44,287 nucleotides of DNA from Desulfobulbus sp. GTDB taxonomy: Bacteria > Desulfobacterota > Desulfobulbia > Desulfobulbales > Desulfobulbaceae. Positions within the stretch are counted from its first letter, which is position 1. Each line of letters begins with the position of its first letter. The stretch covers positions 1 to 44,287 of the forward strand of contig DRKI01000127.1 of the NCBI GenBank assembly GCA_011051875.1, given 5' to 3'. Below are positions 3,737 to 7,886 of the stretch, one piece after another. The position numbers were made by a program, and so were the translations under genes. The notes beneath the pieces are model-generated. The model saw nothing but the letters and a program-made list of their open reading frames with translations. It had not been told where the DNA came from and did not search any database.

Positions 3737-5080
3737 ATGCAACCAGATACCAGGAAAAACATTCCCCTGGCCGAACGGATGCGGCCGACGACCCTGGATG
3801 AGTTTGTCGGCCAGCAGCACCTGGTCGGCGAGAACAGGATCCTGCATCGTCTCATCGGCCAGGGCAGGATCCCCTCGCTCCTGCTCTGGGGCCCGCCCGG
3901 ATCCGGCAAGACGACCCTGGCCACCATCCTGGCCCATACCATCGACGCCCGCTTCATCTTCTTCTCCGCCGTGCTCTCCGGGGTCAGGGAACTGCGGGGC
4001 GTGGTGGAAGAGGCGGCCGGCGAACGTGAGCGCTCGGGCCGCCCCACCCTCCTCTTTGTCGACGAAATCCACCGCTTCAACAAGAGCCAGCAGGATGCCC
4101 TGCTGCCGCACGTGGAGAGCGGCCTGTTCACCCTGATCGGCGCCACCACCGAGAATCCCTCCTTCCAGGTGATCGCGCCCCTGCTGTCCCGCTGCCAGGT
4201 GCTTACCCTCAACTCCCTGGAGGAGGACGATATCAGGACCATCGTCCGCCGCGCCCTGGAGGACCGCGAACGCGGCCTGGGATCCCGGAAATTTGTCCTG
4301 GAGGAGGACGCCCTGGACCTGCTGGTCCGGAGCGCCGACGGCGACTGCCGCCGCGCCCTCAACTGCCTGGAGACCGCGGTCTCCCTGGCCCGGGACGCGG
4401 ATGGGAGCGCCGGCCTCATCAGCGTGGAGGTGGTCCGGGAGGCGGCCCAGGAACGGACCCTGCGCTACGACCGGGCCGGCGAGGAACACTACAACCTGAT
4501 ATCGGCCCTGCACAAGAGCCTGCGCGACAGCGACCCGGACGGCGCATCCTACTGGCTCGGCCGCATGCTGGCCAGTGGCGAGGATCCACTCTACATCGCC
4601 CGCAGGCTCATCCGTTTCGCCTCCGAGGATATCGGCAATGCCGATCCCCAGGCCCTGCAGGTCGCCCTCAACTGCCGCGACGCCTTCCACATGCTGGGCT
4701 CGCCCGAGGGCGAACTGGCCCTTTTTCAGGCCGCCACCTACCTGGCCACGGCGCCAAAGAGCAATGCCGTCTACATGGCGGAGAAAAAGATCCGCAGCGA
4801 TATCCAGCGTACCGGCTCCCTGCCCGTACCCCTGCACCTGCGCAACGCACCCACCAAACTGATGCGGGAGATGGGCTACGGCCACGGCTACCGGTATGCC
4901 CACGATTCCGACGACGGCCTGGTGGCCCAGGAACATATGCCTGACAAGCTCAAGGGCAGCATTTATTACGAGCCCACCAACCGCGGTTACGAGGCGGTCA
5001 TCCGTGACCGGCTCATCAGGTGGCGGAAAATTCTGCAACAGAGAGCACAGTGCCATGCAAAGCGCCCTGACCCGACCTGA
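3737..5080 (+). CDS. rarA: Replication-associated recombination protein A (AAA+ ATPase)
   Basis: A 447-residue AAA+ ATPase of the RarA/MgsA/WRNIP1 family, related to clamp-loader and RuvB ATPases, which acts at stalled replication forks. Walker A is GPPGSGKTT at residues 52-60, Walker B is LLFVDE at 105-110 with the family-typical Ile-His-Arg-Phe-Asn-Lys extension, and sensor 1 is GATTENPS near residue 138. The C-terminal half has the family's ASEDIGNADP and YGHGYRYAHD motifs, which belong to the tetramerisation part. Length matches the family. The start is an ATG at 3737 with a weak AGGA upstream. Its last 26 bases overlap the start of the cytochrome/nucleotidase-like gene, suggesting translational coupling. 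Confidence 0.95.
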   Translation: MQPDTRKNIPLAERMRPTTLDEFVGQQHLVGENRILHRLIGQGRIPSLLLWGPPGSGKTTLATILAHTIDARFIFFSAVLSGVRELRGVVEEAAGERERSGRPTLLFVDEIHRFNKSQQDALLPHVESGLFTLIGATTENPSFQVIAPLLSRCQVLTLNSLEEDDIRTIVRRALEDRERGLGSRKFVLEEDALDLLVRSADGDCRRALNCLETAVSLARDADGSAGLISVEVVREAAQERTLRYDRAGEEHYNLISALHKSLRDSDPDGASYWLGRMLASGEDPLYIARRLIRFASEDIGNADPQALQVALNCRDAFHMLGSPEGELALFQAATYLATAPKSNAVYMAEKKIRSDIQRTGSLPVPLHLRNAPTKLMREMGYGHGYRYAHDSDDGLVAQEHMPDKLKGSIYYEPTNRGYEAVIRDRLIRWRKILQQRAQCHAKRPDPT

Positions 5081-6668
5081 CAGGATTTTCCTGTTTCTTT
5101 TCCTGCTCATCCTGACGGTCCTGACGGCCGGCCCGCTCCCGGCCGCCCGCGGCGCCGACCTGCGGATCATCTACAGCAACGATGGACGGGGAGAACTGGA
5201 ACCCTGCGGCTGACACGCTAACCAGCTGGGCGGTCTGTCCAGGAAGGCCTATCAGATCAGGAAACTGCGCCGTGATCCGGCCAGGCCGACCCTGGTTCTC
5301 GACAGCGGCGCCATGCTTTTCAGGCTGCCGGTCCTACCTGCCATGACCCTCGCCACCGCCCGGCTCAAGGCAGAGGGCGTCATCCGCGCCCATGCGCAGA
5401 TGGGATACACGGCCGTGGCGCTCGCACCCCGCGACCTGGCCGGCGGTCTCGACTTCCTGCGGAAGCAGGGAAAAAAGGGCCTGCCCTGGATCTCCCTCAA
5501 CCTGGTCACCGACCAGGGCCGGTCACCGTTTCCTCCCATGATCCTCACCAAGAGCGGCGACCTGCGCATCGCCATCCTGGGCCTGACCGGTCCGATCCGC
5601 ATGACCAATGTCCGCCAGAACGGCTACCGGATCATTCCCTGGCAGCAGGCACTGCCACCGGCCCTTGCAGAGGCGGACAGGGCAGCGGACATGGTCATCC
5701 TGCTCTCCAGTTATCCCTTCCGGATCAATCAGCAGATCGCGCAAAATCTGGAAGGGATCGCGATCATCCTCCAGGCCGGCAACTCAGAGGCGAACATGAC
5801 GCCGCGCCTGGTCGGAAACACACTGATCTGCCAGGCTGCAAGCCGGGGCAAGTACCTGGGTATCCTTGACATCGACTGGTCCGGCGGGGAACGATGGGTC
5901 ATGAAGAACAGCGCCCGCCGGGCGCTCCTGCAGGAGCGGCTCAGCAGGATCGGGCTGCAGATGGAGAGAATAAGGAAAGGGACGCCTGACAGGGCCATGA
6001 AAAAGAACAGCAGCTACCGCCACCTCCTTGCCACGCAGGCGGACATCGAGAAGGAGCTGCGGGCCCTGGCGTCAGAGGATGGGCAACAGCAGGGTTCCAC
6101 CTACAGCAACCGGTTCATCGCCCTCGAGACATCCCTGCCCGAGGACCGGCAGGTGGCGGCCATTGTCCGCCAGACCCTGCGCCGGGCAAATGACCTGAGC
6201 CGGAAAGAGCTCGAGAAACGCAGAAATGAGAGGAAGGAAGCGGGAAAGACCAGGCGGCGCCTTACCATGCTGGCCGGAGCCGGAACCTGCAGTGGCTGTC
6301 ACCAGCGCCAGGCCGCCTTCTGGCGCAGGACCCGCCACGCCTCTGCCTGGCAGACCCTGGTCATCCGCAATCGCCAGTTTGACCGTACCTGCCAGTCCTG
6401 TCATGCGACCCTGCCTGCCGAGGCCCTGGCACAGGCTGGTATGCAGACCATGCCGCCCGCCATTCCCGTTGAACTGCGGGGGGTCGGTTGTGAATCCTGT
6501 CATGGTCCGGGCAGGAGACATGCAGACAATCCGGCAGGAAACCGGCTGCGGCTGCCGGACGAATCAACCTGCACCACCTGCCATCAAGCCGAACATGATG
6601 CTGCATTCTCCTATGCCGACCGGCTGGCCCTTGTCCGCTGCCCGAAAACGACCAGACCGGGGAAATAG
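5055..6668 (+). CDS. Probable selenoprotein: secreted 5'-nucleotidase-like/tetraheme cytochrome c (TGA at 5211 read as Sec)
   Basis: One reading frame of 538 codons interrupted only by a TGA at 5211-5213. Before the TGA are a signal peptide (residues 1-35) and the N-terminal strand of a metallophosphatase/5'-nucleotidase-like domain, ending Glu-Pro-Cys-Gly-TGA. After it the same domain continues (HANQLGGLSRKA, then VLDSGAMLF). As I recall, relatives carry Pro-Cys-Gly-Cys here, so TGA replaces the second Cys (Sec53). Four CxxCH heme sites follow at residues 412, 446, 479 and 506 in a cytochrome c554-like region, so the product must reach the periplasm. A hairpin with a GGUCU loop starts 18 nt after the TGA. 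The downstream ATG at 5313 has no ribosome binding site and would give hemes without export. Translation probably couples to rarA. A nonsense mutation is the alternative, but the intact downstream frame and hairpin argue against it. The reaction catalysed is unknown. Confidence 0.85.
5211..5248 (+). promoter_or_regulatory. Bacterial SECIS-like element after an in-frame TGA
   Basis: The UGA is at 5211-5213. A 6-bp stem pairs CUGGGC (5226-5231) with GUCCAG (5237-5242), including one G-U pair, and closes a GGUCU loop (5232-5236). A weak lower stem can form between 5217-5219 and 5246-5248. In E. coli fdhF the SelB-binding loop also presents GGUCU, and its GGU is the seventh codon after UGA. Here GGU is the seventh codon as well, followed by CUG in both. 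This is direct reading plus known SECIS architecture; folding was done by eye. Confidence 0.82.
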
Positions 6669-6806: not shown

Positions 6807-6837
6807 AAAAAAAGGACGACCGGTTTCCCGGTCGTCC
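6807..6837 (-). terminator. Intrinsic terminator of ppaC
   Basis: A perfect 10-bp stem (GGACGACCGG, 6814-6823, with its complement at 6828-6837) has a 4-nt loop. On the minus strand it is followed by seven T residues (6807-6813). It lies 29 bp past the ppaC stop. Confidence 0.9.
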
Positions 6838-6865
6838 CTGATGTGCACGGCAGACGGTCTGGAGG

Positions 6866-7789
6866 CTAGCAGCCGAAGGCCTTCTGCAGGTTGGGAATGG
6901 TCTGCTTCTTGCGGCTCATCATGCCCTCGATCCACATGGAGTCACCGTCCAGCTTGGTGTCAAAGGCTTTCTCGATCAGGGCGGGATCATCGGAGACAAC
7001 CAGCAGGTCGGTGCCTTCCTTGACCACGTCGGTGAGCATCAGCAGGATGGTATGGTGGCCGCCGGCAGCCTTCTGCTCTTTCATGGCATTGAGCAGGTCC
7101 TCGCGGATATCGGCGACCTGGTCCAGGGTGGCCAGCTCGAGCTGTCCGCAGCCGACCTTGTTGCCATTCATGTCAAAATCCTTGTAGTCGCGGTTGAGCA
7201 GGTCCTTGGCGGGCACGCCCTCGACAGAGCTCTTGGCCTTGAGCATGTCCATGAACAGGCCGTCGGTATCGTCCACACCCGCGATCTCCTTGAGCTCGGC
7301 CACGGCCTTCTTGTCTTCCTCGGTGCAGGTGGGCGATTTGAAGTTGACCGTATCGCTCAGGATGGCGGCAAGCATCAGGCCTGCAACCTTGGGATCCAGG
7401 GTCACGCCTTCGATGTCGTAGAGCTGCTTGAGCACGGTGCCGCTGCAGCCCACCGGCTTGACGCAGCAGAAGATCGGATTGTTGGTGGTCACGTCACCGA
7501 TCTTGTGGTGATCCACAATGGCGACCACCTCGCCGTCACTCAGGTTGTCCGGGGCCTGGGCCAGGTCGCTGTGGTCAACCAGGGCGATCTTCTTGCCGGT
7601 GGCATCGGTCATGACCTCCGGTGTGGCGACGCCGAAACGCTCCAGAACGGTAATGGTCTCCGGATTCAGGTCACCCTGGATAACGGGGATATAGTCTTCG
7701 CCCTTTGCCTTCATCAGTTCGGCATAACTGATGGCAGCGGTGACAGAGTCGGTATCGGGATTCTTGTGACCTACGACATAGACAGACAT
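6866..7789 (-). CDS. ppaC: Manganese-dependent inorganic pyrophosphatase
   Basis: A 307-residue family II pyrophosphatase of the DHH superfamily. It hydrolyses pyrophosphate to phosphate in the cytoplasm, pulling biosynthetic reactions and, in sulfate reducers, sulfate activation. Metal ligands are visible in GHKNPDTDS (His8, Asp12, Asp14), in VDHSD and in the signature Asp93-His94-His95. The C-terminal SRKKQ motif binds pyrophosphate. The start at 7789 is set by AAGGAGG nine bases upstream; a longer reading frame to 7825 lacks support. There are no CBS domains, so it is the short constitutive form. It has its own promoter and terminator and appears monocistronic. Confidence 0.96.
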   Translation of the reverse strand: MSVYVVGHKNPDTDSVTAAISYAELMKAKGEDYIPVIQGDLNPETITVLERFGVATPEVMTDATGKKIALVDHSDLAQAPDNLSDGEVVAIVDHHKIGDVTTNNPIFCCVKPVGCSGTVLKQLYDIEGVTLDPKVAGLMLAAILSDTVNFKSPTCTEEDKKAVAELKEIAGVDDTDGLFMDMLKAKSSVEGVPAKDLLNRDYKDFDMNGNKVGCGQLELATLDQVADIREDLLNAMKEQKAAGGHHTILLMLTDVVKEGTDLLVVSDDPALIEKAFDTKLDGDSMWIEGMMSRKKQTIPNLQKAFGC

Positions 7790-7886
7790 GATTTCAATCC
7801 TCCTTAAAAACGGTTGCAAGAGCATACCCCGCCAGGGATATACACAGTTCCTCCTGATTCCAGCATAAATTCAGCAAACGAACGAA

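Follow-up and report, generated by a model that had tools for sequence, protein, structure and literature searches.

UshA-like selenoproteins with a CxU motif have been described in several sources. An ocean survey published in 2008 reported UshA-like COG0737 selenoproteins with CxU (PMC2398784), a 2022 review tabulated UshA-like proteins with the same motif (PMC9312934), and a 2026 review listed the family NF041198 with the Sec motif CxU (PMC13188914); UshA is not mentioned in the main text of the ISME J 2016 survey. The NCBIfam entry NF041198 (UshA_like_PCGU) is an equivalog model for UshA-like (seleno)proteins, with 519 positions and a cut-off of 275 bits. A second profile, NF049981 (UshA-like (seleno)protein family 2), describes a related N-terminal domain but differs in its family motif, CxxU (PMC13188914), and covers only 262 positions. 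The remaining described proteins used for comparison here were the SoxB thiosulfohydrolase, the UshA 5'-nucleotidase and cytochrome c554 (PF13435; PDB 1bvb).

The window analysed in this study is a 44,287-nucleotide stretch of Desulfobulbus sp. DNA (contig DRKI01000127.1). The gene for the UshA-like (seleno)protein was located at positions 5055 to 6668 of the plus strand and encodes 537 amino acids, with an in-frame TGA read as Sec53. Translation revealed a frame that starts at ATG 5055, passes through GELEPCG to TGA 5211-5213 and continues for 484 more codons to the TAG at 6666-6668; the PCGU motif spans 5202 to 5213 (plus strand), with its Cys at residue 51. The 3' end of the upstream rarA-type gene overlaps this frame by 26 nt and includes the start codon. 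A signal peptide was judged by eye to occupy approximately 5055 to 5156 (plus strand), as evident from a basic start, a hydrophobic run (FLFLFLLILTVLTAGPL) and an Ala near the cleavage position, with cleavage near the junction of ARGA and the following D. The read-through product contains the segments HANQLGG and LVLDSG and four CxxCH sites (CSGCH, CQSCH, CESCH and CTTCH), and a check of the sequence ahead of ATG 5313 found no Shine-Dalgarno-like stretch. The original prediction had described this frame, the signal peptide, the motifs, the four CxxCH sites and the missing ribosome site before ATG 5313, and all of these were found as it described them.

Comparison with NF041198.1 revealed a full-length match of 523.5 bits, in which residues 16-521 of 537 were aligned with profile positions 4-519 of 519. 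The same profile was matched by all 27 aligned relatives, and in 297 genomes of the phylum it found some match in 250 and a match above the cut-off in 58, with one in-frame TGA in almost all of the strong matches; the scan of genome contigs yielded one relative only. In addition to the full-length match, the protein shares with the family the PCGU motif, the TGA at the Sec site and the combination of a phosphoesterase-like and a cytochrome domain; we found no notable difference, and the protein is an ordinary member. The score against NF049981, at 43 bits, was below the cut-off of 140. The window gene adds one member to a catalogued selenoprotein family, and the family is not new; the original prediction, which did not regard it as an established Sec family, was wrong on this point, since NF041198 is named for PCGU and CxU is given in all three of the sources cited above. 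The family is a common one in the phylum, with a phosphoesterase fold whose catalytic metals have seemingly been lost. That Sec is inserted and that the protein belongs to NF041198 can be stated with very high confidence.

The column of the TGA was highly conserved. A TGA stands at the exact PCG-U position in the window and in 28 other loci, P-C-G-U is invariant across the 29 aligned sequences, and one further locus (L047) has GCGU at the Sec column. Members of the wider family that lack the TGA carry Cys at this column, as LCGC in L057 and L058 and as SCGC in L059. A tetraheme member, L069 (also L032), has Ser-Gly-Arg near its start in place of Cys-Gly-Sec, and its Sec site has apparently been lost outright. 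When the window protein was compared with that of L050, 20 of 32 residues were kept before the TGA and 23 of 33 just after it. The in-frame stop is almost certainly read as selenocysteine; the match to one curated profile, together with the PCG-U TGA shared by 28 other loci, indicates that the frame is more than a product of chance. Sec insertion at TGA 5211, as originally predicted, is thus supported by these loci and by the Cys of the wider homologues, and the reading of Sec from the raw sequence proved sound. The prediction had also named homologues with neither Cys nor Sec at this column as evidence that would count against it; homologues carry one or the other, with L069 as the sole exception.

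We identified a putative bacterial SECIS hairpin at 5226 to 5242 (plus strand), with the stem CUGGGC/GUCCAG and the loop GGUCU. The 6-bp stem lies just after the UGA, and the loop starts with a G, 18 nt past the UGA. The hairpin was matched or bettered by 3.2% of shuffled sequences, and the GGTCT loop was present at one offset in 24 of the 29 Sec loci and absent after the codon in L057 and L058, the two nearest homologues with Cys. Because GGT is a minority glycine codon (24 of 154 in five genes of the window), codon habit alone does not explain the GGUCU loop in this genome. The register of the helix moves by one base among subfamilies, and no compensatory changes beyond those of shuffled sequences were found at a fixed register, so that the case for the hairpin is one of position and loop, not of covariation. 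The 46-nt piece as a whole folded no better than shuffles, and an Rfam search near the gene gave no family above threshold.

The same genome contains selA, selB and two selD genes, all above cut-off. No selC was found in this assembly, which is 80% complete, the candidates being Ser, Leu and Arg tRNAs; as a tRNA-Sec match over the cut-off was present in 35 of the 38 searched genomes of the order, the missing selC is likely a gap in the assembly. The absence of selB or selC had been given in advance as a point against Sec insertion; selB is present, and selC is absent from an incomplete assembly only. As a separate observation, a TGA lies in frame within the motif GUAAK of both selD genes (L016 and L017; C169 and C180), at the Sec position of SelD, so that selenophosphate synthase itself would seem to occur in this genome as two selenoproteins.

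An AlphaFold2 model built on 27 aligned family members had a mean pLDDT of 82. Superposition of model residues 1-352 revealed high similarity to the 5'-nucleotidase 3ivd (Z-score of 32.5, rmsd of 2.2 over 274 residues) and to SoxB 2wdc (Z-score of 32.0, rmsd of 2.3 over 267 residues), so that the predicted model has a metallophosphoesterase fold and bears out the noted resemblance to 5'-nucleotidases. Together with the loss of ligands, these matches define a metallophosphoesterase-like (5'-nucleotidase/SoxB) domain with a degraded metal site at 5151 to 6206 (plus strand). With L067 as the reference for the standard motifs NDFHG, SAGD, GNHE, LSHLG and GGHSH, the aligned window protein has NDGRG, DSGA, APRD, LSSYP and LQAGNS, respectively; of the two-metal ligands (DxH, GD, GNHE and GHxH), little is kept beyond the first Asp and a few scattered neighbours. 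The Cys-Gly-Sec loop follows directly after the former DxH metal-ligand motif. Although the fold is common to the window model, SoxB and UshA over about 270 residues, the window protein lacks their metal ligands and has gained the Cys-Gly-Sec loop and a tetraheme tail.

This tail forms a tetraheme cytochrome c554-like domain at 6276 to 6605 (plus strand), which contains the four CxxCH sites and matches Pfam Cytochrome_C554 (PF13435, E 4.8e-10) and Cytochrome_C7 (PF14522). Cytochrome c554 aligns with residues 408-490, although only part of that protein is represented and it is fused in the window to another domain; the heme tail of the model was of low confidence (pLDDT about 60). Standing behind a putative export signal, the tail has the features of a multiheme c-type cytochrome, and the export and tetraheme parts of the prediction are supported by the signal peptide judged by eye, the CxxCH sites and the Pfam matches. 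A tetraheme tail is found in most strong NF041198 members. In L040 (1570-2562) and L045 (1606-2454), which belong to the same taxonomic family as the window, the frame is short and CGU is kept, and no CxxCH follows the Sec in either; L047 also has a short frame, of 351 aa, at the same locus. About 140 nt separate the end of the L040 frame from the next gene, which leaves no room for a cytochrome gene. Because same-locus relatives keep CGU without CxxCH, the hemes appear to be an optional extra on the Sec domain, which weakens the proposal that Sec works next to hemes and is a point against any mechanism that needs hemes in the same chain.

Sec generally serves redox chemistry. In the mechanism that we propose, SelB would bring Sec-tRNA to UGA 5211, aided by the hairpin just downstream, a step that is well supported by the sequence. 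The protein would then be exported and its four hemes attached in the periplasm, as suggested by the signal peptide and the CxxCH sites. In the N-terminal domain of UshA/SoxB fold, the two-metal phosphoesterase site has been lost, and the Cys-Gly-Sec loop may act there as a thiol/selenol redox centre; the cytochrome domain, where present, may exchange electrons both with this centre and with the cytochrome pool of the periplasm. The likeliest class of substrate, by our guess, would be a sulfur, selenium or metal compound. The whole chain, an NF041198 selenoprotein whose Cys-Gly-Sec redox centre is coupled to hemes in those members that have them, is plausible, with the balance about even. That the family represents a novel type of periplasmic oxidoreductase, whose Cys-Gly-Sec loop has taken the place of the dead two-metal centre of a 5'-nucleotidase fold and exchanges electrons with an attached tetraheme module, the hemes being lost in part of the order, is a tentative and rather doubtful proposal.

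Alternatively, the Cys-Gly-Sec loop may bind a metal or metalloid, as a sensor, carrier or scavenger without electron cycling, while the hemes serve another partner. The position of the loop after the former metal-ligand motif and the same-locus relatives without CxxCH are consistent with such a role, but the general use of Sec in redox chemistry and the tetraheme tail of most strong family members argue against it, and we consider it unlikely. A working UshA/SoxB-type phosphoesterase or thiosulfohydrolase, with catalysis tuned by Sec, is improbable. The shared fold, with Z-scores of about 32 to both 5'-nucleotidases and SoxB, and a SoxB profile match with an E-value of 9e-14 speak for hydrolysis, but that match scores 50.6 bits against a cut-off of 550, and, relative to L067, hardly any of the DxH, GD, GNHE, SH and GGHSH ligands remain. 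As the metal ligands are nearly all gone, phosphoesterase or 5'-nucleotidase activity is unlikely and the window protein is probably no nucleotidase; a functional nucleotidase or SoxB was rejected on this ground. A genuine stop or a sequencing error at the TGA, leaving the gene broken or restarted at ATG 5313, is scarcely credible, since the tRNA-Sec missing from the genome's own assembly and a read-through predicted here from sequence are set against 28 other loci with a TGA at this codon, conservation on either side of it relative to L050, selA, selB and selD in the genome, and no ribosome site ahead of ATG 5313. A frame error or pseudogene was ruled out by the conserved TGA, and a restart at ATG 5313 by the absent ribosome site and the conserved upstream part.

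The selenoprotein gene is preceded by a rarA/mgsA-type AAA+ ATPase gene (3737 to 5080, plus strand; Pfam PF12002), which overlaps its start, and a rarA neighbour was found upstream in 7 other loci. Downstream lies a convergent gene for a DHH-DHHA2 protein (6866 to 7825, minus strand; Pfam PF02833 and PF01368), likely a manganese-dependent inorganic pyrophosphatase, and a similar neighbour was present downstream in 6 other loci. L040 shares the downstream ppaC neighbour of the window gene, and L045 shares the upstream rarA one. We also observed a strong inverted repeat (GACGACCGGTTTCCCGGTCGTC) at 6815-6845, between the two convergent genes, which is likely a shared terminator.
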